Below, piece by piece: positions 2,137 through 53,753 of a stretch of DNA of 64,000 nucleotides. How positions within the stretch are numbered: the stretch's first letter is position 1; each line of letters opens with the position of its first letter. This stretch comes from Daphnia carinata (Eukaryota > Arthropoda > Branchiopoda > Diplostraca > Daphniidae), in the NCBI RefSeq assembly GCF_022539665.2, contig NC_081336.1, positions 9,090,778 through 9,154,777 on the forward strand, in the 5' to 3' direction. The notes below the pieces were generated by a model. The model was not told the DNA's origin. It made no database searches and worked only from the letters and a program-made list of their open reading frames with translations. The position numbers were made by a program, and so were the translations under genes.

Positions 2137-3441
2137 ATGTCGTCAAGCAAAATTTGTAAATCGAGTGGTGGCAACTACACTAGCAAAGTGTACTTTGATC
2201 CTAGGGCCGATCAACCGTCCACGGATGGCTATTGGATTACAGATGACCAACTTCGCCAGAAATTGTCAAACTTAATCGACGCGGAAGAAGAGATTCACTA
2301 TGCTTACGTCTACAGCAATCCGCTATCTTCTTTGCAGTTGACAAACAGCATATTTTATCACGCGTTCGTCATAGTAAAAACGAAGAATTGGTGGTGGTCG
2401 ATCGAGAAAAACACGGAATGCATCACGATTCAACGCTCGAAGAACATCGGGAGTGTTCGTGACATGTACCAGAGGAAGAAACGGACGACTGGTGCAACTC
2501 CGATGACAAGCATTAGGCAGAATGAAACAGCGCTGCCCGAGGAGACAATAACAATTATAGAACTCGTCAATTACATTTGGAGGAAAGATTATTTAAACGA
2601 TGTTTACCATCTTGTGGATGCAAACTGCCAAAAGTTTGCTGATGCGATTTTTAATCGCATTAAATTCCCATGGGATGATCACGTCTATTTTGATGAGGCT
2701 GCCGATGATCCCCGATCCTCTGCAAGTAGTCGTGACATGAGTGTGGATAAATTTTTTAGTCAAGTACAACGTTTAAGCAATTCAGAGACATTATCCAAAC
2801 TAGAGCTGTATACTGTGGAACGATTAAGATGCGTAATTTTATTAAACATTATTATGTACGTTTTTATTTTTATTTTGCTATTTTTATTACACTTGAAAGT
2901 AAAGGTAACTTCCGAATCGGATATGACCATCCAATCTTTCCTTTCTTTCGTTATGTTTTTATTCGTATGTGCCTTTTGCGTATGGCCTTTGGCGTACGTC
3001 AAGTTGCGTTGCATCTTACAGGTTAACGAATTGCTATCGCGTCACTCCTTCGTAATTTTTGAAACGAACGAGAGAACTTACTGGTCGTTTGAGCGATTTC
3101 CGACACACTTCGTCATCCATCGCGCCAGAAACAAAGACATCCTTTTGAAAGAGTGCAAGCGGGCTTCACAACACAACTGGTTCTTCAAACCGAAATTGCA
3201 CAGCGAAGCACTTGCTATGGAGTGGAGCACAATGGCAATACTGGAATTCATCTGGAAGAAGGATAAGCTGAACTCTAAAACTGATTTGCCCTTAGAAGAT
3301 TGCGGCCAAGTCGCGTCTATCATCTTCGAGAATTTCAAACGACCCATCATTTTTGGGTATGAATTGTTTTTTGTTTTTTTGCTCTATTTGTTTTTGTTCT
3401 TGCTTTTCATTAATTGGCTGAATTCAAAATTGTTGCAATAA
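2137..3441 (+). CDS. Array family member F1, membrane (A) type
   Basis: I do not recognise this 434-residue protein. It holds two copies of one module. Module 1 has Y-F-D-P-R-A-D (19-25), Y-H-A-F with His75, W-W-W-S-I-E-K (85-91), I-T-I-Q-R, Y-I-W-R-K-D and N-C-Q-K-F with Cys164. Module 2 has R-H-S-F with His303, Y-W-S-F-E-R and D-C-G-Q with Cys389. Between them lie two strongly hydrophobic segments (about 231-253 and 265-288), and a third ends the protein (about 410-428). If the first two form a hairpin, both modules lie on the same membrane side. The ATG is 21 bp after TGACGTCA. The CDS is one exon. The His-then-Cys order suggests a permuted papain-like fold (LRAT/PPPDE-like); this is inference only. 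Confidence 0.85.
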   Translation: MSSSKICKSSGGNYTSKVYFDPRADQPSTDGYWITDDQLRQKLSNLIDAEEEIHYAYVYSNPLSSLQLTNSIFYHAFVIVKTKNWWWSIEKNTECITIQRSKNIGSVRDMYQRKKRTTGATPMTSIRQNETALPEETITIIELVNYIWRKDYLNDVYHLVDANCQKFADAIFNRIKFPWDDHVYFDEAADDPRSSASSRDMSVDKFFSQVQRLSNSETLSKLELYTVERLRCVILLNIIMYVFIFILLFLLHLKVKVTSESDMTIQSFLSFVMFLFVCAFCVWPLAYVKLRCILQVNELLSRHSFVIFETNERTYWSFERFPTHFVIHRARNKDILLKECKRASQHNWFFKPKLHSEALAMEWSTMAILEFIWKKDKLNSKTDLPLEDCGQVASIIFENFKRPIIFGYELFFVFLLYLFLFLLFINWLNSKLLQ

Positions 3442-5253
3442 CGACTGGTCCGCCATCCTGTATGAATTACAGTCCATGAATACTGAAACAATGCGGTACT
3501 TTTTGTCCATGAACACTGAAACAAACAATTTGGTACTTTGAATTTTTTCTTACTCAATTCACTGTCCATTAAGAATGCCCTTACCCTGTTTAACGTGTTC
3601 TGTATACGCCAGTAGAGATGTTCATCTAATAACAGAATACATTATTTTAACACACTATAAGGATAATATTTTTGATACTGACAGACATGACCTTCCATAG
3701 TTTAGAGTCCCAAAATCGCCAATTAAAATCGCATCGTCCTTGACGGTGTCCAAATGCTGTACCATTTCGGGATCCTGTTGCTGCTGCTGGTCTGAAAAGA
3801 AGTAAAGAAAATGAGCATTAGTAGGTAATGATTGATTGCGATATGCAGAGATCCTATTTTTTTAGAGAAGCAAAACAACGCCCTAGAACTGCCCAGATCG
3901 CTGGAGGCTTTTTATTTCCCATTTTGGGTGAAGTTAATGTCTAAAAAAGAAACGAGAATGTGGCAGGTGCTAATCTACAGCTCCATCGAAAATACGCCCG
4001 ACTATAAAACTGACAGCAGAGCAGAGTGCAATTCACACAGGAAACAACTGACTACGCCGTAGGCAAGCTGCGTATTTGCCTTTTTAAAATTTTAAGGGAA
4101 AAGACTCGCTTCAACGTGACAATTTGAAGGACACCAAATGTTTCCTTTTCTTTTCAAGTTGCGGCTTCGCGAAATTTCGGGACCACTCAAGTCATTCAAA
4201 CAACCGAGATACAATTCACGATCCTGCTGCTAAAATTTGACTTTGTTTACAAAATGTTACCACCACCGCATAGAAAAGCGAACGCAACGGGTCTCCAATG
4301 CAAGAAACGCCGAGATAATTTATCTCAAATACAGACAAAACAAAAACAACATTGAATGTTGAGAGAAGTTTAAGATTGCAACATTAAAGACAGAAAGCGT
4401 AAAGGCACAGAACATAAGCATTTGGTTTTTTTCTTCGGTCAGTTCCGTATTGGTACAAGCACGTCATAGCAAACATAAGCCATTCGCACGAAACAGCTTT
4501 GAAAGAGATGTGTGACGTTCACGCCACACATAGAAGTTTGAATTCAACGACTATGCCCGGCGCTCTTCCAGTGGTCCAGCCGTCTACGATATACGGCCGT
4601 TTGACCATAGCACTATTTTAAGCTCACAGAGTCCGACTCAGCTGGGTTTTTTTTTCAAATAGCTAGCTTGTTGAACTTGACAGTGCATTTCCTGGAAGAG
4701 CTCAGCTAAAAGCAAACACAACCGACCGGAGCCTTAGAGATATTTTGAAATGTCATTCCAGGACAATCCTTTATGCAAACAAATAGCAGAAAGTGGCAAA
4801 TGAAATTGCCCGAATATGTAATCGAATAATGTTGTTAATTAACGAAACCGTTAAGAAGGCTTCGACATGATTAAACTACTCGCAATAAAAGGGCTCTTCC
4901 TTTTTCACGGTTGCTAAAGCGCAGCCGCGGATGCGAATTGAGGTTATAAACAAGACGAACGCGAGGATTGAAATAGAAACAGCCGCGGGACTAAAGACGC
5001 CAATGATGAAACGGGGTTGTATGACGTCGAAGGTTCTCGCTGTAAAAGGCAACGCCCACAGTGTGTCGCCACAGCAGTTACAATCAAATGGAGAGAACAG
5101 TTCTCAGCCGTCAACCCTTTCGTGCATTCTCTCGCTTTTCATTCTCTTGATGAAAATGACTTTTCAATCAAGTTGATTGAAACGGCGAGTTTTAAAAAAA
5201 AAGTGAACCTAGTTGTGCCAATATTCACTCGTTTGCGGATTGTTTCAAGTGGG
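3442..5253. repeat. Spacer between F1 and F2
   Basis: The spacer is a mosaic of array repeats. On the minus strand, after an acceptor TTCTTTTCAG near 3793, a frame reads D-Q-Q-Q-Q-Q-D-P-E-M-V-Q-H-L-D and continues to a TAG at about 3660; other units have decayed versions of this exon starting D-W-Q-Q-Q. Positions about 3790-4455 recur at 14257-14936 directly upstream of F5. Positions 4780-5253 are related to 10700-10980 and to the leader of F1. No plus-strand gene is supported. Confidence 0.5.
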
Positions 5254-5261
5254 TGACGTCA
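5254..5261 (+). promoter_or_regulatory. TGACGTCA palindrome in the F2 leader
   Basis: A perfect 8-bp CRE/ATF palindrome starts 21 bp before the F2 ATG, embedded in a leader nearly identical to that of F1 (2116) and F7 (20811). In F9 the same position is mutated to GAACGTCA. Its position just before the start codon makes a downstream core or leader element as likely as a distal enhancer. Confidence 0.4.
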
Positions 5262-5274
5262 CCAACAACTGAGA

Positions 5275-10588: not shown

Positions 10589-10667
10589 TTACAGATACCT
10601 GTAAATAGAACGTGATTCTATACAGACTGTGACACGAAATAATTTAAATATCAGATGTGTCATTACC

Positions 10668-10702
10668 TCTCGTGGGACTCGAACCCACAATCCTTACATT
10701 TT
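10668..10702 (-). other. tRNA 3'-half-like sequence
   Basis: On the minus strand the sequence GTGGG TTCGAGT CCCAC forms a perfect 5-bp T-arm with a canonical seven-base T-loop, followed by a plausible acceptor-stem half GAGAGG. Upstream, where D- and anticodon arms should be, the sequence is ordinary array spacer (compare about 4775 onward). It is therefore a tRNA fragment or the remnant of a tRNA-derived SINE, not a functional tRNA. Confidence 0.4.
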
Positions 10703-11267: not shown

Positions 11268-11275
11268 TATAAAAG
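11268..11275 (+). promoter_or_regulatory. TATA box of the cysteine-rich peptide gene
   Basis: TATAAAAG lies about 30-38 bp upstream of an initiator-like ACATTCAGAC (about 11300-11310). A 5' untranslated exon follows, ending TTG/GTAAGT at 11361, then a 91-nt intron ending CCCGCAG at 11452, then the coding ATG at 11461. The full set of elements argues that the small ORF downstream is a real expressed gene. Confidence 0.6.
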
Positions 11276-11816: not shown

Positions 11817-12217
11817 CTTCAATGCTTGCGCCAATACTTGCGCCAAGACATTGGTCATCACTTGGGCCACGACTTCGGCCAATATCAATAATGCAACCAC
11901 TTAACAAACCACATCATTACTTCGTGATTTTTGAAACGAACGAGGGAACTTATTGGACGTTTGAGCGATTGCCGACTCGTTTCACCATTCAGCGCGCAAG
12001 AGATAAAGACATCCTTTTGAAAGAATATCAACGTGTTCCCCAAGTACTTCGAACGACAGAGCAAATTTGGAAAAGTCAGATGTTGCCGTGTGCTAGAATA
12101 TGAATACAGTTTTGGATTTTACCTGGAAAAACGAAAACCATGGCATATTTTGTTTGGCCGCAGAAGAGTGTGGCAAAATAGCATTGCAAATCTACGAAAA
12201 ATTTAAAAACAAGTAAT
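11817..12217 (+). pseudogene. Array family relic F4 (second module only)
   Basis: Only the linker and module 2 of a B-type member survive. The linker shows decayed G-P/A-P repeats like F3. Module 2 reads H-H-Y-F-V-I-F-E-T-N, Y-W-T-F-E-R, I-Q-R-A-R-D-K-D, then a frameshift at about 12050-12100 drops the frame. The remaining part, L-D-F-T-W-K-N through E-C-G-K-I-A-L-Q-I-Y-E-K-F-K, is open in the new frame and ends at the family's usual stop and 3' flank. The first module is missing. It is fused in frame with nothing meaningful upstream; the long frame at 11522-12103 is an accident of overlap with the peptide gene. Confidence 0.8.
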
Positions 12218-12428: not shown

Positions 12429-12551
12429 CTTGACGTTCGCGGTGGCACTCCTCCGGCCATGATGTTTTCCCACTGATTATGGCTAAATCATTGGGACATA
12501 AAGAATGTCCATAATCTTTTGTCATTTGGGGGTTCACTAACCGCTGCCAAT
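12429..12551 (-). other. Intact D-W-Q spacer exon (minus strand)
   Basis: This is the 123-nt exon described at 6559-6681, again bounded by an AG acceptor and a GTAGG donor and fully open: D-W-Q-R-L-V-N-P-Q-M-T-K-D-Y-G through K-T-S-W-P-E-E-C-H. In this unit the next minus-strand frame (12270-12390), with R-L-H-L-L-R-G-E-M-Y, is open too and ends with a TAG. Confidence 0.4.
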
Positions 12552-14256
12552 CTGAAAGTAAAAGAGGAAATAAAGTGGAACATCAACCAAAATAACTTTC
12601 AGTGTTTTGTTATTTGGGGGATCACATGCTAACACTACTTGAACCCGATCAAAACTCAATACTGAAACTTAGGAAGAAAAAAAAAATCTGCTTTTTAAAG
12701 TTGATTGGGACACAGGCTCCATGGTAGTTGAAAAATCATTTTCATTTATCAATAAATGATGGCCAATTCAGACACAATTCTTGTTGCTGTGATTCCTAAT
12801 ACAGTTGAATCACTTTCGCAGTCTCGCCTTGGTTTTATTCTGTACAGAAAAAGAAACAACAATTAAGGTAATTTGCTTAGTCTTCAATACAAGGTGAAAA
12901 ACCTAACTAAAGAATTACATGATACTTACAGACTGTTTTAGTTCCAATGACTCCGGATGGGACCCATACGCTTCCAGCTGAATCAAAGGAACTTGGAATT
13001 GACTCTAATGCAAAAGATAAAACAGAAACAATTAGATTTTTGTGCCTGTTGAAACAACTTTTTTTTTTGTTGTATGTTTTCATTCATTTTTTTAGTTGAA
13101 TGGTGGCAACTAAAGTTAAATGGCACTCATAGCATAAAGAAAAGAATTTGATGATTCCATTTGATCTTGACTTTTATTTCCAACTGACTTGATCGTACAG
13201 GACATCTGCAGTCTTGTTGGTTAACTCATTCAAACTATCCCTCAGCCCCAACAAACTTCTGTTGAACTCTCAACTCCATTTAAGGGTGAAGCTAAGGCAG
13301 AATAGTTTCGACATCAGGTGAAGTTCCTGGACAAGAGAATTCTCCCAAGCCAGTTTCTTTTAACGTGTCAATTTCACAGTAGATGTTAATACTTCCATCT
13401 TTCTGGGAGCATTCTTTGAGAGTTTTTTTGTCTAGACGAAGAACTTCACAGTAAGAAACTCGATCCTAGGAAAGACATATGCTACGTGGTAAAAACAGCA
13501 TGGGCCTCGACCTCGTTGCTAGGAAATTGTTTTCCTTGAACTATCTAACATACCGTTTGCTTGAATGTCCAACGACGTACAACTTTATGAAATGAATAGA
13601 ATGAAACAGCAACATACGGAACGAAATTCACTTGACGAGTATAAAAACAAGAACAAACAATCGCAGGGAAGCACCAGAACTAAATGAACTTTTCAATCTT
13701 ACCTTCGAAATGCTGACGTTGTCAAGGGAGGGTCTAGCTAACGGTCGGCCATTTTGGGTTTCCTTTCTCACCCTTCCCTTTTCTTTAACGCACTGGAATG
13801 AAAACAACCAAATCTGCCACCTCTTTGCCTCAGGTAACTGTTTCGATAACATTGACCTGGGCGTGAGGAAAACAATTGCTAACGGCAACAGGCAGCCAGC
13901 CCCCAGCCAACATCAGTTCATCCTTCATCTCTAATAAAGGTCACTGAAGCACGTTTGATTCACTTTTCTGTGTGCACTTTCTTGTATTTTTTTTATTTTC
14001 TTGATCTTCCAACACAACATAATAGACGCAACTTTAGCAAAACGTAATAAACACAACTACAAACAGCAATTCTGACATGCCAGTTTTTAGATTAACTCTT
14101 GATTAGCCGATATCGAGTTATCGATTAACTTTCATCTGACAATAGTCTTTTGTTACATAGCGCTAGACGTCCAACAACATCAGTGTGGCAGCTCTTGTCT
14201 GTGGAATGGGTATGCTTTGAAAAAAAAAGCGTGTTACGCTCCAGAGGTGACAGCAA
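12518..14256. repeat. Segmental duplication block A, copy 2
   Basis: Near-identical to 1-1733. It keeps the 57-codon minus-strand frame (D-R-V-S-Y-C-E-V-L-R-L-D), but the two candidate exons near 12.8-13.0 kb carry a frameshifting indel each. The copy ends at an AAAGAAAAG-rich tract at about 14257, where the sequence switches to the block that follows F1. Confidence 0.85.
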
Positions 14257-14955
14257 ATAAAGAAAAGAAAAGAAAAGAGAGGAAAGAAAATGAGCATTAG
14301 TAGGTAATGATTGATTGCGATATGCAGAGATCCTATTTTTTTAGAGAAGCAAAACAACGCGCTAGAACTGCCCAGATCGCTGGAGGCTTTTTATTTCCCA
14401 TTTTGGGTGAGGTTAATGTCTAAAAAGAAACGAGAATGTGGCAGGTGCTAATCTACAGCTCCATCGAAAATACGCCCGACTATAAAACTGACAGCAGAGC
14501 ACAGTGTAATTCAGACAGGAAACAACTGACTACGCCGTAGGCAAGCTGCGTATTTGCCTTTTTAAAATTTTAAGGGAAAAGACTCGCTTCAACATGACAA
14601 TTTGAAGGACACCAAATGTTTCCTTTTCTTTTCAAGTTGCGGCTTCGCGAAATTTCGAGACCACTCAAGTCATTCAAACAACCGAGATACAATTCACGAT
14701 CCTGCTGCTAAAATTTGACTTTGTTTACAAAATGTTACCACCACCGCATAGAAAAGTGAACGCAACGGGTCTCCAATGCAAGAAACGCCGAGATAATTTA
14801 TCTCAAATACAGGCAAAACAAAAACAAAAACAGCATTGAATGTTGAGAGAAGTTTAAGATTGCAACATTAAAGACGGAAAGCGTAAAGGCACAGAACATA
14901 AGCATTTGGTTTTTTTCTTCGGTCAGTTCTGTATTGGTACAGCAGACAACAGAGA
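14257..14955 (+). repeat. Block B upstream of F5 (copy of 3790-4455)
   Basis: Positions 14257-14936 match the DNA downstream of F1 (3790-4455) closely. F5 therefore uses, as its upstream region, sequence that in the other copy lies in a spacer far from any ATG. The last 20 bp before the F5 ATG (C-A-G-C-A-G-A-C-A-A-C-A-G-A-G-A) resemble the end of the F1-type leader, but the TGACGTCA is gone. Confidence 0.7.
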
Positions 14956-16212
14956 ATGTCGATGTCGTCAAGCAAAAAAAGTAGTTCTTCGGGTGGTAAC
15001 GAATACACTCACAAATTGTACTTTGATCCTGAGGCCGATAAAGCGGACATGGGTGGCCATTGGATTACAGATGACAAACTTCGCCAGATATTGTCAAACG
15101 TAATCGACGCGGAAGAAAAGATTGAAAAGGCTTCCATCTACAGCAATCCGCTACCATTTGGCAAACTGAATCCATTGCAGTTGGCAAACGTCATACTTTA
15201 TCACGCGTATGTCGTAATAAAAACGAAGAATTGGTGGTGGTCGATCGAGAAAAACATGGAATCCATCACGATACAACGCTCGGAGAGTCTCGAGAGTGTT
15301 CGTGACATGTACCAAAGGGAGGAACGGACGACTGGTGCAACTCCGGAGAAAAGCATTAGGGAGAGGAAAACAGCGCTGCCTGATAAGACAATAACAATTA
15401 TAGAACTCATCAATTACATTTGGAGGAAAGATTATTTAAACGATGTTTACCATCTTTTGAATACAAATTGCCAAACGTTTGCTGATGCGATTTTTAATCG
15501 CATTAAATCACCATGCGATGATCACGTCTATTTTGATGAGGCTGCCGATCATCCCCGATCCTCAGCAAGTAGTTGCGACATGAGTGTGGATAAATTTTTT
15601 AGTCAAGTGCAACGTTTAAGCAATTCAGAGACATTGTCTGAACTAGAGCTTTATACTGTGAAACGAGTAAAATCCGTAACTTTTGTAAACAATATTATGT
15701 ATGTTTTTATTTTTATTTTGCTATTTTTATTATTTTTGACAAAAGATATAATTTTCCTGTCGGATATAACCATCCGATTTTTCCTTTTTTTCGTTGTGTT
15801 TTTATTTGGCTATGCCGTTGTTGCGTATGTCATAGTGGATGCCATCTTAGATCAATATGGATTGCTTTCACGTCACTCCTTCGTGATTTTTAAAACAAAA
15901 ACAGAAACTTACTGGTCGTTTGAGCGATTCCCGACACATTTCGTCATCCATCGAGCCAGAACCAAAGACATCCTTTTGAAAGAGTGCAAGCGGGCTTCAC
16001 AACACATTTGGTTCTTCATACCGAAATTGCATAGCAAAGCACTTGCCGCCGAGCGGAGCACAATCGCAATATTGGATTTCATCTGGAAGAAGGATAACCT
16101 AAACTCTGTAAGTCAGTTGCCCTTAGAAGATTGCCACCAAATTGCGTCTATCATCTTCGAGAATTTCAAACAACCCACAATGTTCGATGGCATATTTTCA
16201 TTAATTCGCTGA
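14956..16212 (+). CDS. Array family member F5, membrane (A) type, C-terminal anchor lost
   Basis: This 418-residue protein is a close sister of F9 and F1. Module 1 has Y-F-D-P-E-A-D, the Y-H-A-Y variant of the His box, W-W-W-S-I-E-K and N-C-Q-T-F-A. Two hydrophobic segments follow (I-M-Y-V-F-I-F-I-L-L-F-L and the I-R-F-F-L-F-F-V-V-F-L-F region), then module 2 with R-H-S-F, Y-W-S-F-E-R and D-C-H-Q. Compared with F9 and F1, a deletion of roughly 60 bp near 16185 removes the last hydrophobic segment and shifts the frame, so the protein ends P-T-M-F-D-G-I-F-S-L-I-R. The start has two nearby ATGs (M-S-M-S-S-S); the first is used here. Confidence 0.8.
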   Translation: MSMSSSKKSSSSGGNEYTHKLYFDPEADKADMGGHWITDDKLRQILSNVIDAEEKIEKASIYSNPLPFGKLNPLQLANVILYHAYVVIKTKNWWWSIEKNMESITIQRSESLESVRDMYQREERTTGATPEKSIRERKTALPDKTITIIELINYIWRKDYLNDVYHLLNTNCQTFADAIFNRIKSPCDDHVYFDEAADHPRSSASSCDMSVDKFFSQVQRLSNSETLSELELYTVKRVKSVTFVNNIMYVFIFILLFLLFLTKDIIFLSDITIRFFLFFVVFLFGYAVVAYVIVDAILDQYGLLSRHSFVIFKTKTETYWSFERFPTHFVIHRARTKDILLKECKRASQHIWFFIPKLHSKALAAERSTIAILDFIWKKDNLNSVSQLPLEDCHQIASIIFENFKQPTMFDGIFSLIR

Positions 16213-17667: not shown

Positions 17668-18738
17668 ATGTCGCTGTCGCTGTCGCCAAGCGCGCCTACT
17701 GGTTGCAACTACACCCGCAAATTGCATTTTGATCCTAGAGCGGATCAGCCAAGCACAGGTGGCTATTGGATTACAGCTGACGAGCTTCGCGAAAAATTGT
17801 CAAACTTGATTGACACGGAAGAAATCATTAAAAATGCTTCCGTCTACAGTAATCCGCTCACTTCGTGGCAGCTGACAAACGCTCTGCTGTATCACGCGTT
17901 CATTGTAATGGAAACAAACGATTGGTGGTGGTCGATCGAGAGAAACACGGAAGGAATCACGATTCAACGCTCGAAGAACCTCGAAAGTGTTCGCGATATG
18001 TACCAGAGGGAGAACCGGACGACTGGTTTGACTCCTTTAACACAAATCAGAAAGTATGAAACTACGCAAGGGGGGAATACCACAATCAAAGAACTCATCA
18101 ATTACATTTGGACGAAAGATTGTATAAACGACGTTTACCATCCTGTTGCGGAGAATAGCCAAAAATTTGCTGCCATGATTTTTGATCGTATCAAATCAGC
18201 ATAGAATGATCTAGTCTATTTTGACGAGCCTGACGATCAACCCCGATCGTCACGTAATAGTTACTAGATGAATGTGGATCAAGTAATCAGTCAAGTGCAA
18301 CGTTTAAGCGCTTTAGAGGTTTTTACTAAAGTAGTGATTTATGAAGTTTCAAGTAGTTCATGGATCATCCCACATCTTTTTGTGCCCGACTTTTTGTTTT
18401 CCCCTTTTCTACAAACAGCTGCTATTTCTTCGCATCATTACTTCGTGATTTTTGAAACGAACGAGAGAACTGACTGGTTGTTCGAACGATTACCGACTCT
18501 TTTCACCATTCAGCGAGCCAGAAATAAACAGATCCTTCTGAAAGAATGTCGACGGGAATTACGCGATACTGTACTCTTCAAAGCAAATATGGAAAAATCA
18601 GATGTTGCCGTTAGCCAGAATATGAATGCAGTTTTGGATTTTACCTGGAACAAGGACAACCTGGACATATGTTATTTGCCGTTAAAATATTGCGGCACAA
18701 TAGCCTTGCAAATCTACGACAAATTTAAAATGAAGTAA
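17668..18738 (+). pseudogene. Array family pseudogene F6 (two nonsense mutations, Cys lost)
   Basis: The frame is collinear with F11 and F3 over 357 codons, with no frameshift, but two tyrosine TAC codons have become TAG: at 18202 (S-A-stop instead of S-P-Y-N-D) and at 18265 (S-Y-stop-M-N-V). The N-C-Q-K-F box of module 1 reads N-S-Q-K-F, so the proposed catalytic Cys is also gone. Module 2 shows T-D-W-L-F-E-R in place of T-Y-W-S-F-E-R. Upstream DNA is intact and promoter-like, so a truncated 178-residue product could still be transcribed. Confidence 0.85.
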
Positions 18739-20818: not shown

Positions 20819-20831
20819 CCAACAACCGAGA

Positions 20832-21938
20832 ATGTCGTTCAGCAGCAGTTTTGGATCGGTTGGTAGCTATTACAATCAAAAATTGTACTTCGATCATAGG
20901 GCCGATCAAGAGTACACGGGTGGCTATTGGATTACGGATGACCAACTTCGCGAAAAATTGTCAAACTTAATTGACACGGAAGAAAAGATTGAAAATGCTT
21001 CCGTTTACAGCAATCCGCTCTCTTCGTTGCAGGCGACGAACGCTCTGCTGTATCACGCGTTCATTGTAATGAAAACAAATAACTGGTGGTGGTCGATCGA
21101 GAAAAACTCGGAATGCATCACGATTCAACGAGCGAAGAACCTCGAAAGTGTTCGCGATAAGTACCAGAGGACGAAACGGACGACTGGTTTGACTCCTTTA
21201 ACACAAATCAGGGAGAATGAAACTACAGAAGGCGGGAATACAACAATCAGAGAACTCATCAATTACATTTGGAGGGGGGACTGTTTAAAGGACGTTTACC
21301 ATATTCTTATGGAGAATTGCCAAATATTTGCTAACCTGATTTTTGCTCGTATCAACTCACCACGCAATGATCAAGTCTATTTTGACGAAGCTGCCGATCA
21401 ACCCCCATCTTCAGCTAACAGTTACTATATGAATGTGGATCAAGTGTTCAACGAGGTGCAACGGTTAAGCGCTTCCGAGAATTTTACCAAATTAGAGATT
21501 TATAAAGCGCCAATAAGTTCACATTACATCCCAGTTCCTCTTGAGGCCGAAAATATATCCTCCATACTTAAGAAAATATCTGGATATTTTTCGCATCATT
21601 ACTTCGTGATTTTTGAAACGAACGAGGGAACTTACTGGTCGTTCGAACGATTCCCGACTAGTTTCACCATTCAGCGGGCCAGAAATAAGCAGATCCTTTT
21701 GAAAGAATGTCAACGGGAATTACGCGACACTTTACTCTTACAAGTAAATTTGGAAAAGTCAGATGTTGCCAAGCGGCAGAATATGAAAGCAGTTTTGGAT
21801 TTTACCTGGAAAGAGTTCGAACCGGAAATATCTTACGTGCCCGCAAGAAATTGCGACACAACAGCCTTGCAAATCTACGACAAATTTAAAATGAACTCTT
21901 TTGCTGCCCAGAAATCCTGGACGAATTACTTCCAATGA
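20832..21938 (+). CDS. Array family member F7, B type, extended C-terminus
   Basis: This 368-residue family member has module 1 with His75 and Cys163 (E-N-C-Q-I-F), and module 2 with H-H-Y-F, Y-W-S-F-E-R and N-C-D-T. D-H-R-A-D replaces D-P-R-A-D and V-R-D-K-Y replaces V-R-D-M-Y. The usual stop after K-F-K-M-K is lost (AAC TCT replaces AAG TAA), so translation runs 14 residues into the former 3' untranslated region (S-F-A-A-Q-K-S-W-T). Single exon. Function unknown. Confidence 0.85.
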   Translation: MSFSSSFGSVGSYYNQKLYFDHRADQEYTGGYWITDDQLREKLSNLIDTEEKIENASVYSNPLSSLQATNALLYHAFIVMKTNNWWWSIEKNSECITIQRAKNLESVRDKYQRTKRTTGLTPLTQIRENETTEGGNTTIRELINYIWRGDCLKDVYHILMENCQIFANLIFARINSPRNDQVYFDEAADQPPSSANSYYMNVDQVFNEVQRLSASENFTKLEIYKAPISSHYIPVPLEAENISSILKKISGYFSHHYFVIFETNEGTYWSFERFPTSFTIQRARNKQILLKECQRELRDTLLLQVNLEKSDVAKRQNMKAVLDFTWKEFEPEISYVPARNCDTTALQIYDKFKMNSFAAQKSWTNYFQ

Positions 21939-23204
21939 GCACTAATACAAACTATTCGCTATTTTTTGTAATTTTTTTTTAACTCCCAAAGTTGCGGCTT
22001 AGAGGCGATGAAATAGTTGGTCGATAAAAATTCTGATCAACACGGTAGATCTCACCACGAAGTAAATGCAACCTTTTTTATAAACTGATGAAAAATGGTA
22101 TTTCCTACCTTGAAGTTCGGAGTGACACTCCTCCGGCCGGGATGTTTTCCCACTGGTTAGGGCTAAATCAGTGAGTCATAAAGGATGTCCATAATCTTCT
22201 GTCATTTAGTGGGGGGGGGGGGGGGGGGTTCACTTACCGCTGCCAATCTGAAAGTAAAAGAGGAAATAAAGTGAAACATCAACCCATAACTTTCATTATT
22301 CTGTTATGTGGTGGATCTTGTGCTAACACTACCTGAACCCGATCAAAACTCAATACTGAAATTTAGGTAGAAAAAAAATCTGCTTTTTAAAGTTGATTGG
22401 GACGTTGCCCCCTTGATAGATGACAAGTCATTTTCATTTATCAATTTATAATGAAGGGTTACTCGCATTAATTTGGTGAAGTTCAGTTTGCAAGAGTTCA
22501 ATTTTCATTGGAAAGACCCAAATCTCGAAATGGCAAGTTGACTTTCCCAGATCCATGATTACTGTAAACTTTAATGACAGAACAACTGCTGTATCTCTGT
22601 GAGGACTACATCACACATTTTCAACATTAAAAATGGAGCTAAGGCAATGAAAAATAGTGTCAATTTACTGCATGAAACATACATGTGAATCACACTGCAC
22701 AACTGATATTCGTGTGAAATGTGTTCTCACTTTTGCTTTGTCCAAGCAAAATAAAAAATAAAATGAATTGATATACTCACCTCTAGTAACTTCTTTTCTA
22801 AAAAAGTTCACAATGTGGTTGAACTTCAACTTTCACGATGGTGATTCTTCTGCCGGTTGCCAGTCTTCTAGAATCTACCTTGGGTGCACAACAATAAGTT
22901 GTTTAAACGTTATATACATAAAAATTAAAAAGAAATCGAAAAACGAGTGGCATTCGTAAAGACATTAACTAAAATTTTCGGGGGAAAAAAATTACACAGA
23001 ATAAAAAGAAAATAATAATAAAAAAAGCGCGATGTTTGCAGCCAATCAGGATGCATAGAACTTGGGGCGGTGTGTTTCCGATATTGTTTTGGAAGAATTT
23101 TCGTCTGCTAATGTTACGTAACAAAATACTACGTGCAGAAGTTCGAAGGAGATCTCTGCATCGCCTGCTTGACATTCGAAGGTTAACCATTAAACATCGT
23201 CAAC
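21939..23204. repeat. Spacer between F7 and the first FAM162 copy
   Basis: Standard 3' flank. The D-W-Q exon here contains an 18-base G run (22211-22228) in place of the short C run of the coding copies, so it is dead. From about 22650 the DNA matches 32300-32850 and, except for the large insertion there, 37050-39007: this is the left arm of the FAM162/copine duplication. Confidence 0.6.
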
Positions 23205-23762
23205 ATGTCAATGTTGAACAAATTTCGTACGTCTCAAGTAATTTGCAAGTTGAATAAAATTACGAGGCGTGGAATGGCTGAATCGAAACCTGATACCAGT
23301 ATTAAACCTCATACTGAAGCCGCATACACATCCCCTAATTCAGCACTAGGCAAATCGGCATTGGTATTCAATGTGGAAAAGTTTGATTAATTATTTCTAT
23401 TTTATACAGGAGATGTTCACAGGGTTAGTAAAGTGGAAAGATATTTCCTGGTTTGGACAAAAAAATTCAAGTCTACAAAAGATGTTCCTGGCTATGTTTC
23501 ATAAGTGAAAATTGAATTAATTTGGCAAAAAGTCTCAAGTATGAAACATGAAATACAATTTAGGAGAGACATGATGGAAAAGGCTAGAAACATCATGCGT
23601 ATAAGACTTAACTTATCCATCATAGCTCTTTGCTTGATTGGGGCATTATTTGCAGCCAAAAGTGGGAAAAAGGCTGCTGCTAGGGGAGAATCCGTCACTA
23701 AGAATAACCTTCAGTGGCATAAAGATTACAATAATTCCCAAAATGCACAGCTCCCTAAGTGA
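23205..23762 (+). pseudogene. FAM162-like gene, copy 1, splice donor lost
   Basis: This is a copy of the complete gene at 39008-39561. Exon 1 (23205-23349) and exon 3 (23564-23762) are open, and exon 2 (23410-23500) is preserved, but the donor of intron 2 has changed from GT to AT (T-T-T-C-A-T-A-A-G-T-G at 23498-23508). Normal splicing of the UPF0389/FAM162 domain is therefore unlikely. An alternative is intron retention, giving an early stop or use of the downstream ATG. Confidence 0.65.
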
Positions 23763-23886
23763 AAAAAGTAAATATTAAATTCAAGTGATAATCCTATTAA
23801 TCACTCAGCTGGAATCTATCGTTGCATGAACACTTAGATAATAAAAGATGGAAATATAACAAACTTCTTAACTAAGGCCTTGGCTT

Positions 23887-25060
23887 TTAATTTGAAAGAT
23901 TGGATAATATCCCCTTGTTCTTTGGTAAAATACCCTTCATTTTCATGTACGACACTATCTGCTCAGGAATATCTGCCAGCATGTGCTTGGCCAGTTGAAA
24001 ACCACCCGCCGTGACGTCATATTTCTCTAAAAACTCGTTGAACTGGGCGTACTGAACGACATCTCTCGCCGCATTACGGCCATTTTGGCTGAGCTTTTGT
24101 ATGTCCTCTTCTAGCCGATTCATCGATGTGAATGAAGTCGGTCCCATCCCAACAATCAATACCGACATTGGAAGCTCCGAAGCTTCTGCAATCGCCTAAA
24201 TATCACATTGAATTTTAATTGAGTTCCGGCACAGCAAACGTATCTTTACCTTCGCAACTTGGCTGGCGTCAGCAATTTCTCTGCAAGTCAAAATAACCAG
24301 TACAAAGTAGTCATCGCAATCGAGTCCACGCCATTCCAAATGTTTTTTGGCTGAGCGTGCGACGTGCTCAATTGGAGGACTGAGGCATCCCGTCTGGCCC
24401 AATTGAATCGAATGCAGACAAGAGCGGTAAGCATTAATGACGCCTTCTACGCCACGAACGTGCAATTCGTGTGAAACTGGAGCCGAGCGGGCGCCGAAAT
24501 TGAGCAACGAAAACATTTCCCCAGTGTAATCCTAGACGATTAAACGTAAAATAATAGAAGAAAAACATTTCAAATGCAGCTGACATAAGAACAAAGTAGC
24601 GCTAGTCCTACCTGAATGACGTCTCCGATGGCTCTCATTGCAAGCTCATATTGCGTGGGGTCTCGTCCAATATGATGTAAACTCGGTGGATTATGCGGAT
24701 CACCGTTGGAATCTGTTTTCAATAATCATCACAATAAACGGGTCGAATAACCCTGCACTCAAATTAATTTGTTCCTTTACCAGTGAAGTCGATTGCGAAA
24801 GTGAAGTGCAGTTTGGTCCCACTAGAAATATAATCGAGGAAGGAATGTACACGTTTCGTCTTGCTCGTAGTCAATTCAATTACAGCTTCGCTGGAATGCT
24901 GTCAAATAAAACAAAATTTTTCAAAATAAAGAAATAAAAGTTTTACAATTTCCAATGCAAATTACACTTTTCTTTAGTGGAAGCGAAGCTGGAGCTTCTA
25001 GCAATTGGCGGGCGTGAATTTCGGTTTCTCCAAGAAGCTGATGATGACCATCTTTACATA
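23887..25060 (-). pseudogene. 5'-truncated copine copy
   Basis: Copy of copine exons 2 (3' end only), 3, 4, 5 and 6 (24898-24781, 24712-24612, 24531-24250, 24195-23887) with intact splice sites and open frames. The exons for the first C2 domain and nearly all of the second are missing because the duplication ends at about 25060, where the DNA switches to the middle of an array family gene. What remains encodes the von Willebrand A-type copine domain only (A-I-D-F-T, N-F-G-A-R, I-V-G-M-G-P). It has no evident start exon, so it is probably not made as protein. Confidence 0.8.
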
Positions 25061-25061
25061 C

Positions 25062-25742
25062 AATTACATTTGGAGGAATGATTATTTAAACTATGTTTAC
25101 CATCTACTTAAGGAGAATTGCAAAAAATTTGCTGCCATGATTTTTGATCGTATCAAATCACCGTACAATGATCAAGTCTATTTTGACGAGGCTGCCGATC
25201 AACCCCGATCTTCAGCAAATAGTTATTACATGAATGTGGATCGAGCGTTCAGCGAAGTGCAACGTTTAAGCGCTTCAAAGAATTTTACTATATTAGAGAT
25301 TTATAAAATTCCAATAAGTTCATGGAACATCCCAGATTTTTTTGTGCCCGACATTTTCGCTTTCCTCTTTAGGCAATTAACTGGATTATTTTCGCATCAT
25401 TACTTCGTGATTTTTGAAACGAACGAGGGAACTTACTGGTCGTTCGAACGATTACCGACTCGTTTCACCATTCAACGAGCCAAAAATAAACAGATCCTTC
25501 TGAAAGAGTGTCAACGGGAATCACGCGAGACTTTACTCTCCAAAGCAAATTTGGAAAAATCCGATGTTGCCGTGCCGCAGAATATGAATGCAGTTTTGGA
25601 TTTTACCTGGAAGAAGAGGAACCTGGACATATTTTATTTGCCCGTAAACTTTTGCTACTTGGTAGCCTTGGACATCTACGAAAAAAATTTAAAAGGAAGT
25701 AATGTTGCCGCCCAGAAATCCTGTACGAATGGCTGCCAATGA
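25062..25742 (+). pseudogene. Array family fragment F8, truncated and fused to copine DNA
   Basis: The first 143 or so codons, including the His of module 1, are missing; the fragment starts in the middle of N-Y-I-W-R (25062 onward) and is otherwise close to F2. It keeps the Cys of module 1 (N-C-K-K-F) and all of module 2. Two extra A bases before the end (about 25683) shift the frame and add a tail (S-N-V-A-A-Q-K-S-C). The open frame beginning at 25005 uses antisense copine codons as an artificial N-terminus. Confidence 0.8.
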
Positions 25743-27523: not shown

Positions 27524-28825
27524 ATGTCGTCAACCACCATTTGTACATCGTGTGGTAGCAATTACACTTGCAAATTGTACTTTGATCCTGGGGCCGATAA
27601 AGCGGACATGGGTGGCTATTGGATTACAGATGACCAACTTCGCCAGATATTGTCTAACCTAATTAACACGGAAGAAAAGATTGAAAAGGCTTCCATCTAC
27701 AGCAATCCGCTATCAGTTGGCAAAAAATTGCAGTTGGCAAACCGCATATTTTATCACGCGTATGTCGTAATAAAAACGAAGAATTGGTGGTGGTCGATCG
27801 AGAAAAACACGGAATGCATCACGATTCAACGATCGGAGAGTCTAGAGAGTGTTCGTGACATGTACCAAAAGAAGAAACGGTTGACTGGTCCAACTACGGA
27901 GACAAGCATTAGGGAGAAGAAAACAGCGCTGCCAGATAAGACAATAACAATTATAGAACTCATCAATTACATTTGGAGGAAAGATTATTTAAACGATGTT
28001 AACCATCTTGTAAATGCAAATTGCCAAAAGTTTGCTGATGCGATTTTTAATCGCATTAAATCACCATGGGATGATCACGTCTATTTTGATGAGGCTGCCG
28101 ATCATCCCCGATCCTCAGCAAGTAGTTGCTACATGAGTGTGGATAAATTTTTTAGTCAAGTGCAACGTTTAAGCAATTCAGAGACATTGTCTGAACTAGA
28201 GCTTTATACTGTGAAACGAGTAAAATCCGTAACTTTTGTAAACAATATTATGTATGTTTTTATTTTTATTTTGCTATTTTTATTATTTTTGACAAAAGAT
28301 ATAATTTTCCTGTCGGATATAACCATCCGATTTTTCCTTTTTTTCGTTTTGTTTTTATTTGGCTATGCCGTTGTTGCGTATGTCATAGTGGATGCCATCT
28401 TAGATCAATATGGATTGCTTTCACGTCACTCCTTCGTGATTTTTAAAACAAAAACAGAAACTTACTGGTCGTTTGAGCGATTCCCGACACATTTCGTCAT
28501 CCATCGAGCCAGAACCAAAGACATCCTTTTGAAAGAGTGCAAGCGGGCTTCACAAGACATTTGGTTCTTCATACCGCAATTGCATAGCAAAGCACTTGCC
28601 GCCGAGCGGAGCACAATCGCAATATTGGATTTCATCTGGAAGAAGGATAACCTAAACTCTGTAAGTCAGTTGCCCTTAGAAGATTGCGGCCAAGTCGCGT
28701 CTATCATCTTCGAGAATTTCAAACGACCCACAATTTGTGGGAATGAATCGTTTTTTGTTTTTTTGCTCTATTTGTTTTTGTTCTTCCTTTTCATTAATTG
28801 GCTGAATTCAAAATTTTTGCAATAA
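27524..28825 (+). CDS. Array family member F9, membrane (A) type
   Basis: I choose the ATG at 27524 (M-S-S-T-T-I-C), which aligns with F1; the frame is open upstream to 27455 but that part is leader sequence. The protein has 433 residues. Module 1 has Y-F-D-P-G-A-D, Y-H-A-Y, W-W-W-S-I-E-K and N-C-Q-K-F-A. Two hydrophobic segments follow, then module 2 with R-H-S-F, Y-W-S-F-E-R and D-C-G-Q, then a C-terminal hydrophobic segment (F-F-V-F-L-L-Y-L-F-L-F-F-L). The central region is almost identical to F5, the C-terminus to F1, suggesting recombination or conversion among A-type genes. Function unknown. Confidence 0.85.
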   Translation: MSSTTICTSCGSNYTCKLYFDPGADKADMGGYWITDDQLRQILSNLINTEEKIEKASIYSNPLSVGKKLQLANRIFYHAYVVIKTKNWWWSIEKNTECITIQRSESLESVRDMYQKKKRLTGPTTETSIREKKTALPDKTITIIELINYIWRKDYLNDVNHLVNANCQKFADAIFNRIKSPWDDHVYFDEAADHPRSSASSCYMSVDKFFSQVQRLSNSETLSELELYTVKRVKSVTFVNNIMYVFIFILLFLLFLTKDIIFLSDITIRFFLFFVLFLFGYAVVAYVIVDAILDQYGLLSRHSFVIFKTKTETYWSFERFPTHFVIHRARTKDILLKECKRASQDIWFFIPQLHSKALAAERSTIAILDFIWKKDNLNSVSQLPLEDCGQVASIIFENFKRPTICGNESFFVFLLYLFLFFLFINWLNSKFLQ

Positions 28826-30423: not shown

Positions 30424-31554
30424 ATGGCGCAGTCGTCAAGTGCGTCTATCAAAAGTGGTACATACACCTGCAAAATGTATTTTGATCCTCGGGCGGATGC
30501 ACCCGACACAGGTGGCTATTTGGTTCAGGATGATGAACTTCGCCAAATATGGTCAAACTTAATTGACACGGAAGAAAAGATCGAAAATGCTTCCGTCTAC
30601 AGTAATGCGCTCAATTCGTGGCAGTTGACGAACGCTCTGCTGTATCACGCGTTTCTTGTAATAGAAACAAAAAAGTGGTGGTGGTCGATCGAAAAAAACT
30701 CGGAATGCATCACGATTCAACGCTCGAAGAACCTCGAAAGTGTTCGCGATATGTACCAGAGGACGAAACGGACGACTGGTTTGACTCCTTTAACACAAAT
30801 CAGAAAGAATGAAACTACGCAAGGCGGCAATACAACAATCAAAGAACTCATCAATTACATTTGGAGGAAAAACTGCTTAAACGACGTTTACCATCTTCAG
30901 GATGCAAATTGCAAAGTATTTGCTGCCCTGATTTTTGATCGCATAAGATCACCGTACAATGATTTAGTCTATTTTGACGAGGATGCCGATCAACCCCGAT
31001 CGTCACCTAATAGTTGCTACATGAATGTGGATCAAGTATTCAATCAAGTGGAAGATTTAAGCGCTTCAGAGATTTTTACTAAAACAGAGATTTATGAAGT
31101 TTCATATAGTTCATGGATCATCCCAGATCTTTTCGCACCCGCCTTTCTGTTGCCCGCCCTTTTGCTAGCTGTGCCGATATCTATAATATTACCTCCAGCA
31201 ATATTCGCATTAATTGCAATACAATTTAGAATAAAAAAAACTTTAGCAATTAAGCCTCACGTCGTGATTTTTGAAACGAACCAAGGAACTTACTGGTCGT
31301 TCGAACGATTGCCGACTCGTTTCACCATTCAGCGAGCAAAAAATAAATACATTCTTTTGAAAGAATGTCAACGTCTTCGCCGAAAAACATTACCGACCTT
31401 GATAAAGTCAGGTGATGCCGTGCAGAAAAATATGAATGCAGTTTTGGATTTTACGTGGAAGAAGGACAACCTAAATAAAAATGAAATATTTTATTTGCCC
31501 TCAGCCTTTTGCGGAATGGTAGCCATGCAAATATACAACAGATTTACAAAGTAA
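30424..31554 (+). CDS. Array family member F10, hydrophobic linker
   Basis: This 376-residue protein is the most divergent B-type member. Module 1 has Y-F-D-P-R-A-D, His75, W-W-W-S-I-E-K and Cys163 (N-C-K-V-F-A); Y-L-V-Q replaces Y-W-I-T. The linker (about 237-268) is a long hydrophobic stretch with Pro (F-A-P-A-F-L-L-P-A-L-L-L and on), enough for one or two membrane passes, unlike other B members. Module 2 has K-P-H-V-V-I-F where others have H-H-Y-F-V-I-F, so its His sits one position later than the conserved one, while the Cys (F-C-G-M) is kept. Module 2 may be inactive or altered. Confidence 0.82.
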   Translation: MAQSSSASIKSGTYTCKMYFDPRADAPDTGGYLVQDDELRQIWSNLIDTEEKIENASVYSNALNSWQLTNALLYHAFLVIETKKWWWSIEKNSECITIQRSKNLESVRDMYQRTKRTTGLTPLTQIRKNETTQGGNTTIKELINYIWRKNCLNDVYHLQDANCKVFAALIFDRIRSPYNDLVYFDEDADQPRSSPNSCYMNVDQVFNQVEDLSASEIFTKTEIYEVSYSSWIIPDLFAPAFLLPALLLAVPISIILPPAIFALIAIQFRIKKTLAIKPHVVIFETNQGTYWSFERLPTRFTIQRAKNKYILLKECQRLRRKTLPTLIKSGDAVQKNMNAVLDFTWKKDNLNKNEIFYLPSAFCGMVAMQIYNRFTK

Positions 31555-32848: not shown

Positions 32849-33034
32849 ATGTCAATGTTGAACAAATTTCGTACGTCTCAAGTAATGTGCAAGTTGAATA
32901 AATGTACAAGGCGTGGAATGGCTGAATTGAAACCTGATGCTAGTATTAAACCTCATACTGAAGCCGCATACACGTCCCCTAATTCAACACTAGGCAAATT
33001 GGCATTAGTATTCAATGTGGAAAAGTTTGATTAA
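32849..33034 (+). pseudogene. FAM162-like fragment, copy 2 (exon 1 only)
   Basis: Exon 1 (M-S-M-L-N-K-F-R-T-S-Q-V) is preserved, but at about 33040 the sequence jumps to the array spacer (C-C-T-T-G-A-C-G-T-T-C-G-G). Exons 2 and 3 with the membrane domain, and the copine gene, are absent. Confidence 0.8.
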
Positions 33035-33046
33035 CTATTTCTATAC

Positions 33047-33169
33047 CTTGACGTTCGGGGTGACACTCCTCCGGCAGGGATGTTTTCCCACTATTTATGG
33101 CTAAATGGCTAGGTCGTAAAGGATGTCCATAATCTTCTGCCATTTCAGGATTCACGAAATGCTGCCAGT
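33047..33169 (-). other. Intact D-W-Q spacer exon (minus strand)
   Basis: 123 nt, open frame D-W-Q-H-F-V-N-P-E-M-A-E-D-Y-G through K-T-S-L-P-E-E-C-H, with acceptor CTTTCAG and donor GTATAG in place of GTAGG. It lies directly at the breakpoint of the FAM162 fragment. Confidence 0.35.
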
Positions 33170-35246
33170 CTGAAAGCAAAAGAGGAAATAAAGTGGAACA
33201 TCAACCAATAACTTTCATTGTTCTGTTATTTGGTGGATCTCATGGCAACACTACCTGAATCCAATCAAAATTCAACTACGGAACTAAAGTAGAAAAAATA
33301 CAAATCTGCTTTTTGAAGTTGATTGGGACATAGGACCCCTGGTCGTTGACAAGTCATTTTTATGTATCAATAAATAATGAAGGGTTACTTACGTTAATTC
33401 AATAAAGTTCAGTTTCACTGGAAAAACCCAAATGTAGTAATGGTGATTTGACTGCCCCAGATCCATAATTACTGTAGACTTTAAGGACAGGACAACTGCT
33501 GTCTATCTGTGAAGACAACAGCACAAATTCTTAACATAAAAAAAGGAGCTAAGGCAGTGAAAAATAACGTCAACTTACTGTGACAACAGATATGTGAATT
33601 GTTTCGGAATGTTCTTTACTGGCTAAAATTGTATCGTTCTTGACCATGGCCAAAATGCTATACCGTTTTGAGATTCAGTTGTTGCTGCCAGTCTGAAAAG
33701 AAAAGAGAGGAAAGAAAATGAGCATTAATGGGAAATATTTGTTTTTCTAGGACACGGTTCGTTGAGATATGAGGGGAAATTCGAATGCTATTTTTTAGGA
33801 AGCAAAACAACGGGTTAGAACTGTCCCACATCGTTGGAGGCCTTTAATTTCCATTTGGAAGAGGCTAATGTCCATAAACGCAACGAGAATGTGGCGGTTG
33901 GTAATATACTTTCACATCGAAAATATGTCCGAATATAAAACTGACAGCAGAGCAAATTGCAAGCCAGGTAGATAACAACTGATTACGTCGTAAACATCGC
34001 TTGTCCCGCATTTGATATTCCAGAAAATATGACTCGTTTCTACGTGACAATCTGAAGAACATCCAATGTCATTGCCGGACCATTCGAGTCGTTAAAAAAT
34101 CGAAAGAAAAATTCACTGTCTCCTGCTAGAGTTGGACCTTGTAAAGTAAGTGTTACCACGGCCCCATAGAGGGCTATACACAATGGTATGTAATGCATGG
34201 AAAGCCGAGATAATTTACCACAAATACAAACACAAAAACAAACACAAAAAATATGCGGTTTTTTTCCTGGTCTTGGTAACAAAAATTTGTTGACGCAATT
34301 TCTCCACGTCGTCCACTAAGTATTGAACAGCGTAAAACTTCAATAAAGTAGGAGCGGGATGATAATGAATGGCTTTTGCGTGGCATTTAAAATGATGCCA
34401 GAGTTAACTGCTTATAACTTTTCTGCTTCGTGAAATTGGTTATTGGACTTTGACGTTACGGAAATGTTACATCGCGCAATCTTATCAGAATGCAATAGAC
34501 AATAGGTTCCGATAAAAGGGCAAGTAACATTCATCTTGAAAATATTTAAAAAAATTAATTTAACGTCCTTGGCGTAAAAGACTACTACAAAATTCAAAAC
34601 CATAAGCGCCTTCACACTCGTTTCGATAAACACGCCACTACTGTACAACAAGCAAATTTCAAGAAACATCATATCAATTTTAGTACATCAAAAATTATAA
34701 TTGAACCCGCCCCCCCCCCCCCCCCCCCCCCCAGCCGATACACGCAAAACAGAACAGTCCACAAGACTTGAATCGTTTTCATATTGTGCAACAACGCATC
34801 GGGCAACCGTAAACGACGACACCTGATAAGGTGCGTCGTTCACACGGCTGAAGATCAATAGGTCAAACCAAAGGAAATATCTTTCTTTGAATTCATGTAC
34901 ATAGCTTAGTCTGGCTGTTTTAAGGTATGACGACCACAATTATCTCCACCACCCAATCGCAATGATCGTAGAAGATAAGGTCTGATCACCACCCACTCAT
35001 CTGACTTCACTTAGTTATCTACACTGTATCACTATTTCAACGTGAATTAGAGGCCAAAAGTTCAGTAGAAGCATTCGGTCTGCCTTCTCTTCACGTAAAA
35101 GACGTGAAACGTGAATCAGAGAACAAGTCTAGTGTGGTGGTCAAAGGATTCCCGTGACAATCAACACATCGGCCCGTACACACTAGTTGACGCTCAAAAC
35201 CCTAACTGGACGGATGCAAAATAATTATAACCAACAGTAACAGGAA
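33170..35246. repeat. Spacer upstream of F11
   Basis: Holds decayed versions of the minus-strand pieces (I-D-S-S-C-P type near 33450-33520; D-W-Q-Q-Q near 33640-33690; the 91-codon frame broken near 33870-34080). A 23-base C run lies at 34710-34732. About 34390-34690 is not seen elsewhere in the window. Positions 34900-35246 are a diverged promoter of the F3 class with an internal partial duplication of A-C-G-T-G-A-A-T-(T/C)-A-G-A-G. Confidence 0.45.
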
Positions 35247-36314
35247 ATGTCGCTGTCGCCGTCGCCAAGCGCATCTACTGGTTGCAACTACACCTGCGAA
35301 TTGTATTTTGACCCTAAAGCGGATGAGAAAAGAACAGGTGGCTATTGGATTACGAATGGCGAGCTTCTCGAAAAAATGGAAAAGATCGTCGGCACGGATG
35401 AAGCGATTCTAAGTGCTTTCGTTTTCAGCAATCCGCTCTCTTCGTGGCAGGGGACGAACGCTCTGCTGTATCACGCGTTCATTGTAATGGAAACAAATAG
35501 ATCGTGGTGGTCGATTGAGAAAAACATGGAAGGCATCACGATTCAAACATCGAAGGACATCGAAAGTGTTCGTGACATGTATCAGAGGAAGAAACGGACG
35601 ACTGGTTGGACTCCGTTGGCACAAATCAGAGAGAATGAAACTATGCAAGGCGGCAATACAACAATCCGTGACCTCATCAATTACATTTGGAGGAGAGACT
35701 GTTTAAACAACGTTTACCATTTTCTTGGTGAGAATTGCCAAAAATTTGCTGCCTTGGTTTTTGATCGTATCAAATCACCACACAATGATCAAGTCTATTT
35801 TGACGATGCTGCCGATCAACCCCCATCTTCAGCTAATACTTACTACATGAATGTGGATCAAGTGTACAGTCAAGTGCAACGTTTAAGCGCTTCAGAGAAT
35901 TTGACTAAATTAGAGATTTATAAAGTGCCAATAAGTTCATGGAACATCCCAGATTTTTTTGTGCCCGGCTTTTTGGCTTTCCTCTTTAGGCAAATAACAG
36001 GAATCTCTTCGTATCATTACTTCGTGATTTTTGAAACGAACGAGGGAACTTACTGGTCGTTCGAACGATTACCGACTCGTTTCGCCATTCAGCGAGCGAG
36101 AAATAAACAGATCCTTCTGAAAGAATGCCAACGGGAATTACGTGACACTTTACTCTCCAAAGCAAATTTGGAAAAATCAGATGTTGCCGTGCCGCAGAAT
36201 ATGAAGGAAGTTTTGGATTTTACTTGGAAGGACAACCTGGACACATTTTATTTGCCTGTAGAACGTTGCGGCAAAATAGCCTTGCAAATCTACGACAAAT
36301 TTAAAAGGAAGTAA
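35247..36314 (+). CDS. Array family member F11, B type
   Basis: This 355-residue family member has module 1 with His76 and Cys164 (E-N-C-Q-K-F-A) and module 2 with S-Y-H-Y-F, Y-W-S-F-E-R and R-C-G-K. The tryptophan box reads N-R-S-W-W-S-I-E-K, one Trp short of its sisters, and N-G-E-L-L-E-K-M-E-K-I-V-G replaces the usual D-E-L-R-E-K-L-S-N-L-I-D helix. N-terminal M-S-L-S-P-S-P-S-A-S-T-G-C is of F3/F6 type. Single exon. It is the last full member of the array on this side. Confidence 0.85.
   Translation: MSLSPSPSASTGCNYTCELYFDPKADEKRTGGYWITNGELLEKMEKIVGTDEAILSAFVFSNPLSSWQGTNALLYHAFIVMETNRSWWSIEKNMEGITIQTSKDIESVRDMYQRKKRTTGWTPLAQIRENETMQGGNTTIRDLINYIWRRDCLNNVYHFLGENCQKFAALVFDRIKSPHNDQVYFDDAADQPPSSANTYYMNVDQVYSQVQRLSASENLTKLEIYKVPISSWNIPDFFVPGFLAFLFRQITGISSYHYFVIFETNEGTYWSFERLPTRFAIQRARNKQILLKECQRELRDTLLSKANLEKSDVAVPQNMKEVLDFTWKDNLDTFYLPVERCGKIALQIYDKFKRK

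Positions 36315-52277: not shown

Positions 52278-53753
<1,476 letters not shown>

Follow-up and report, generated by a model that had tools for sequence, protein, structure and literature searches.

Contig C6 of Daphnia carinata carries a tandem array of genes whose products are each built of two similar halves, which raises the question of whether both halves are enzymes, and of what kind. The array lies in a stretch of 64,000 nucleotides, hereafter the window (C6:9090778-9154777), taken from a 108 Mb genome. Our analysis shows that the halves stem from an internal duplication and that the first half matches the PPPDE family (Peptidase C97). We consider it probable that these proteins join a membrane-associated thiol hydrolase (module 1) to an eroded partner (module 2) with an anchoring, regulatory or substrate-binding role.

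A head-to-tail array of two-module genes

Between positions 2137 and 36314 of the window, eight uninterrupted open reading frames (355-434 residues) and three copies that are broken or partial follow one another head to tail, all on the + strand. The eleven members of the original prediction are therefore all present if the broken copies are counted. The intact genes form two subtypes, type A (F2, F3, F7, F10, F11) and type B (F1, F5, F9).

2137..3441, + strand: F1, type B two-module gene, 434 residues; predicted transmembrane hairpin within module 2 and a C-terminal hydrophobic segment
5275..6342, + strand: F2, type A two-module gene, 355 residues
5275-5811, + strand: F2 module 1, with H75, E90, Q99, Y156, N162 and C163
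5812-6339, + strand: F2 module 2, with H256, E272, Q281 and C341
8321..9481, + strand: F3, type A two-module gene, 386 residues
about 11909-12210, + strand: F4, module-2 fragment, two pieces in differing frames
14956..16212, + strand: F5, type B two-module gene, 418 residues; predicted transmembrane hairpin in module 2
17668..18738, + strand: F6, broken type A copy with two in-frame TAG; Ser for the module-1 Cys (by eye)
20832..21938, + strand: F7, type A two-module gene, 368 residues
about 25061-25742, + strand: F8, truncated copy, front of module 1 gone
27524..28825, + strand: F9, type B two-module gene, 433 residues; Asn for the module-1 Tyr
30424..31554, + strand: F10, type A two-module gene, 376 residues; Pro for the module-2 His, one long hydrophobic stretch in the module-2 loop
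35247..36314, + strand: F11, type A two-module gene, 355 residues

The earlier numbering of His75/Cys163 and His256/Cys341 in F2 is correct. Because their frames are uninterrupted, the eight intact genes need no intron. Genes that score higher against the PPPDE profile PF05903 lie elsewhere in the same genome, at C5:804142 and C9:6900092/6901055; they are crossed by stops or in pieces, which suggests introns there.

The type B copies are spaced 12.8 and 12.6 kb apart, and window positions 1-1753 recur at 12518-14272 with 97.6% identity, so that blocks of about 12.6 kb were apparently duplicated as part of the array expanded. A further module-2 fragment lies just beyond the window edge (C6:9090169-9090470). 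Positions 22843-25058 are a 2.2 kb copy (93.5% identity) of 38640-40861, a region that adjoins a copine gene and takes in part of it, and the front of module 1 of F8 is missing where this copy abuts, at about 25058/25061. Amplification together with broken copies fits birth-and-death evolution, and the array, with eight intact genes, three broken ones and its repeated block, makes a clear case of it.

Module 1 matches the PPPDE family

PF05903 scored above its curated cut-off in three of the eight window proteins and below it in four, with no match in F10; at E<=0.01 it matched 36 of 40 module-1 and relative sequences. In the VIA structural rows for module 1, the top entry is 2wp7, a deSUMOylase, followed by TseH and CLN5. 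The 2wp7 alignment runs from residue 50 onward only, and 2wp7 is not among the VIA rows for module 2. Foldseek against the PDB gave no significant match for either module model, so that support for the fold comes from the VIA rows and Pfam. PDB sequence searches gave no match with F2 or with A2, a profile of the eight module-1 sequences and 32 relatives, and only four chance-like TRPC4 rows (E about 0.5) with A5. Six proteins had no match in NCBIfam.

The original prediction had likened both halves to permuted papain-like families such as LRAT and PPPDE. The PPPDE profile match supports this for module 1; module 2 has no such match (see below), and LRAT membership is not supported by profiles, as PF04970 matched none of the eight window proteins and reached only E 0.078 in one of ten relatives. 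As a fold, LRAT may still apply, as may other families outside the listed VIA rows, among which it does not appear for either module. A separate Pfam family, DUF2207_C, matched the three type B proteins below its cut-off (E down to 1.6e-4); these matches cover the hydrophobic stretch and were read as composition.

Module 2 is a diverged duplicate of module 1

The internal duplication proposed from the sequence was borne out in two ways. Profile A2 aligned with the eight module-2 sequences at hhalign probability 99.3 (E 5e-20, 155 columns), and a hidden Markov model built from the 32 relatives only, with no window sequence, found module 2 in all eight intact window proteins (best piece 35.5-60.9 bits, i-E 3e-12 to 5e-20 in a search of eight sequences). 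The repeat is about 175 residues long and takes in the YFDP-AD lead-in. In F1, F3, F5, F9 and F10 the model matches module 2 in two pieces, with an insertion in the loop preceding the His strand. PF05903 matched none of the eight window module-2 sequences at E<=10, so the homology of module 2 is visible only through the family profile.

Module 2 has been the faster of the two to diverge: among 21 Daphnia proteins the mean pairwise identity was 0.68 in module 1 and 0.47 in module 2, with 0.69 and 0.56 among the eight window proteins, and 0.60 and 0.52 among nine other two-module relatives. Ratios of nonsynonymous to synonymous substitution (dN/dS, NG86 (Nei-Gojobori) method) averaged 0.58 in module 1 and 0.71 in module 2 over ten A-A pairs, with module 2 higher in seven, and 0.37 and 0.49 over 15 A-B pairs; the three B-B pairs, which hold few changes, gave 1.24 and 1.03. 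Between subtypes, module 2 looks less constrained than module 1, yet still under constraint.

Active-site residues are kept in module 1 and eroded in module 2

We tallied six active-site positions in single-domain relatives of <=300 residues with all six aligned (148 of 203 proteins, including a few cut-off Daphnia two-module proteins). Counts were Glu 148, His 145, Cys 144, Tyr 143, Asn 141 and Gln 140, that of Glu being inflated because candidates were gathered by exact words and Glu lies in the WWWSIEKN box. With the same search bias, Glu sits 15 residues past His in 148/148. Tyr lies seven residues upstream of Cys. The four Cys exceptions are Ser (three) and Gly (one).

Two-module proteins were aligned as a set of 34 (eight from the window, 26 others), split into 25 of Daphnia type and nine other relatives; these tallies omit Daphnia proteins whose module 2 is incomplete, among them P0008, P0019, P0020, P0021, P0023, P0028 and P0031. 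Module 1 keeps His, Glu and Asn in all 34 and Cys in 32; in the 25 Daphnia proteins the counts are His 25, Glu 25, Asn 25, Cys 23 and Tyr 23. Ser replaces the module-1 Cys in Daphnia P0022 and P0025, as in F6 (by eye).

Module 2 of the 25 Daphnia proteins retains Glu in 24, His in 15, Cys in 14 and Asn in one, with Tyr at the aligned place in none; Cys is missing in 11, one of them a gap. The nine other relatives have His 9, Glu 9, Gln 9, Asn 8 and Tyr 7, while their Cys position holds Ser in eight and Arg in one. The eight Ser rows represent six distinct module-2 sequences (P0016 and P0029 are identical, P0030 and P0032 almost so). A hand count on the tree described below gave a tie between Ser and Cys as the ancestral state.

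A conserved His-before-Cys pair is a feature of module 1 and the single-domain relatives; in module 2 the pair is not conserved across relatives. The original prediction had seen the pair in both halves, and within the window it largely stands: module 2 has Cys in 8/8 and His in 7/8, F10 having Pro. The N-C box is largely lost from module 2 here, its Asn being kept in just one of the eight window copies; none of these has the aligned Tyr.

Hydrophobic segments and N-termini

Hydrophobicity was computed as a 19-residue mean Kyte-Doolittle value. The module-2 insertion of F1, F5 and F9 holds two hydrophobic segments (2.38 to 3.12), which form a predicted transmembrane hairpin between the two matched module-2 pieces; in F1 the hairpin overlaps the first piece by about ten residues. 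Such a hairpin would leave both halves of module 2 on the same side of the membrane. C-terminal hydrophobic segments occur in F1 and F9, and F10 has one in the module-2 loop. Far longer hydrophobic insertions are seen by eye at the module-2 loop site of D. magna P0011 (619 residues) and P0012 (539 residues), and P0181 ends in a hydrophobic tail, also by eye.

Among 136 N-terminally complete single-domain proteins (again with a few cut-off Daphnia two-module proteins), 37 start with MGxxxS/T, our own simple myristoylation-type rule. When residues 2-16 were shuffled in 2000 trials, such starts averaged 4.3 and numbered at most 12, a comparison that is not a significance test because the sequences are related. 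None of the eight window proteins has an MG start; type B has predicted transmembrane segments instead.

Relatives and origin

Two-module homologues were found in D. magna and D. sinensis (best 82%) and in further assemblies; those of D. magna bear adjacent locus numbers (OUZ56_020433 to 020447). One-module or other relatives come from entries under the names Exaiptasia, Oculina, Lineus, Dreissena, Hyalella, D. pulicaria and D. galeata, as well as from a EukProt entry with the prefix scpid, which we take to be the sponge Sycon; in one search the relatives are those among the matches listed, the best 120 of 138. D. carinata itself has six complete one-module genes and one partial at C6:9194397-9572914. 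A distant one-module relative on C3 (L044:2026-2763; C3:12636000-12641000) reads, by eye, N-S in place of N-C, a Cys lying two positions upstream; it retains the SIEKN and LQRSK boxes and has no Pfam match. P0024 (D. magna, 621 residues) carries a long DNDNDADQH-type repeat after module 1, and its database name, probable ATP-dependent helicase, looks like a misannotation.

A tree was built by a quick method with midpoint root from 98 rows, covering 30 of the 34 aligned two-module proteins (P0015, P0017, P0026 and P0040 were left out), five other two-module proteins and 28 chosen one-module proteins. Module 2 of the Daphnia proteins and of the nine others forms one side of a branch (support 99), which suggests that they share one fusion. 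Against this, module 1 of the nine is not grouped with Daphnia module 1: in the P0016 group it sits with one-module proteins of crustaceans (support 83), while those of P0033/P0039 and P0034 are placed elsewhere. Room must therefore be left for gene conversion, for loss of the second module from one-module genes, or for poor resolution. Lineus, P0121/P0122 and P0087 lie outside the shared module-2 branch, the branches of Lineus module 1 and P0087 being long, and look to be separate fusions. On this tree, tandem fusion seems to have had more than one origin, in the Daphnia type, Lineus, P0121/P0122 and P0087. With relatives in cnidarians, a nemertean, a mollusc and crustaceans, the family looks old in animals.

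Proposed function and alternatives

In the arrangement that we regard as probable, an intact gene would encode two PPPDE modules of permuted papain type. Cys163 of module 1 would be the nucleophile and His75 the base, with Tyr156 and Asn162 in the active site; Glu90 would probably be the third, acidic residue of the triad. Module 1 would cut an isopeptide or thioester bond, in a ubiquitin- or SUMO-type conjugate or an S-acyl group, on membrane-associated proteins. Module 2 would be an old duplicate with catalysis lost or weakened, retained for regulation, substrate binding or membrane anchoring; the predicted hairpin inserted in it in type B suggests that there it may also be an anchor. A role in defence is possible.

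As this proposal leaves the bond open, it overlaps with a second, more tentative one, in which module 1 would be no isopeptidase but a thioesterase or acyltransferase, akin to CLN5 or LRAT/PLAAT, that works on S-acyl groups or lipids. CLN5 is among the VIA rows of module 1; the sequence evidence for LRAT is the one relative mentioned above.

The original prediction of a tandem two-site thiol hydrolase, with both modules active, seems to us unlikely, although several observations favour it and weigh against an eroded module 2. His, Glu and Cys occur together in seven of the eight intact window copies, with the Tyr one place off in four; the module-2 model is confident and its order of elements similar; mean dN/dS stays below one in the A-A and A-B pairs; and Lineus P0123/P0124 and P0121/P0122 retain His and Cys in both modules. 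On the other side, the window copies of module 2 lack the Asn before Cys in 7/8 and the aligned Tyr in all, and the Cys is gone from the 11 Daphnia proteins and nine other relatives counted above.

It is improbable that the protein as a whole has no enzymatic function and serves instead as, say, a membrane protein with a binding or structural role. The Ser or Gly found for Cys in P0022, P0025, F6 and four single-domain relatives would fit it and also counts against a hydrolase, whereas the six active-site positions are highly conserved in single-domain relatives and module 1. We give about as little weight to the idea that module 2 outside Daphnia is a naturally evolved serine-type PPPDE hydrolase, which would place Cys and Ser sites of one fold in each polypeptide, with the Daphnia pair having become an enzyme and a partly membrane-inserted pseudoenzyme; it is raised because His, Glu, Gln and Asn are kept there while Cys is replaced by Ser in eight of nine. 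Recent capture of a viral or bacterial gene by Daphnia is scarcely credible: two giant-virus models in BFVD match at fold level only (Foldseek probability 1.00, E 2-3e-3, low TM-scores), whereas the relatives lie in animal entries and 11 viral and 16 prokaryote motif-bearing stretches encode no relative, in scans that reach motif-keeping relatives only.

Neighbouring features

The array has ordinary neighbours in the window:

43316-43615: cuticle protein
45859-47721: ankyrin-repeat protein
49908-51019: ZAD/C2H2 zinc-finger gene
53105-53665: cytidylyltransferase-like exon

In addition, 19-base tandem repeats, open in several frames, lie at 37415-37524 and 37666-37901 (12.3 copies in the larger).

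Comparison with known systems

In the open-licence literature we found no paper on PPPDE or deSUMOylating isopeptidases in Daphnia, only a moth virome paper for PPPDE with crustacean, and nothing of use on PPPDE gene families, DESI2 or thioesterases. Among known enzymes, the S-depalmitoylase CLN5 is lysosomal; nothing in the Daphnia family points to lysosomes, and CLN5 has no sequence match and a weak Z. LRAT and PLAAT proteins (PF04970) are membrane-associated and share the permuted papain layout, unlike the Daphnia family in their profile. The third residue of LRAT is a second His, according to passages of a 2023 classification (PMC10318531), which also single out the replacement of Cys by Ser in papain-like proteins as particularly intriguing and little explored. 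Such a replacement becomes testable here within single proteins. The family points to a natural series in which one module of the fused pair erodes, exchanges its Cys for Ser or acquires a predicted transmembrane hairpin. BcPPNE and YiiX (permuted NlpC/P60, C92 type) differ at the N-terminus and gave no sequence match; the His49/Glu64 spacing of BcPPNE, as given in part of PMC3142127, equals the 15-residue His-Glu spacing of the family.

The closest likeness is to PPPDE/Peptidase C97 enzymes (DESI1, and DESI2, also PPPDE1), which have the His followed by N-C-x-x-F and the Tyr seven before Cys, and which provide the best Pfam match and the top structural row. Passages of the same paper (PMC3142127) give PPPDE1 a Phe in the third position and a Tyr101/Cys108 spacing equal to that of the family. 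The Daphnia proteins differ from DESI in about 50 extra N-terminal residues in module 1, in the Glu 15 residues after His with its WWWSIEKN box, and in the second, eroded module and its predicted transmembrane insertion. These features point to a PPPDE subfamily of animals in which an acidic residue is strongly conserved at a position where DESI enzymes have none. The enzyme type is a known one; its double arrangement may be new.

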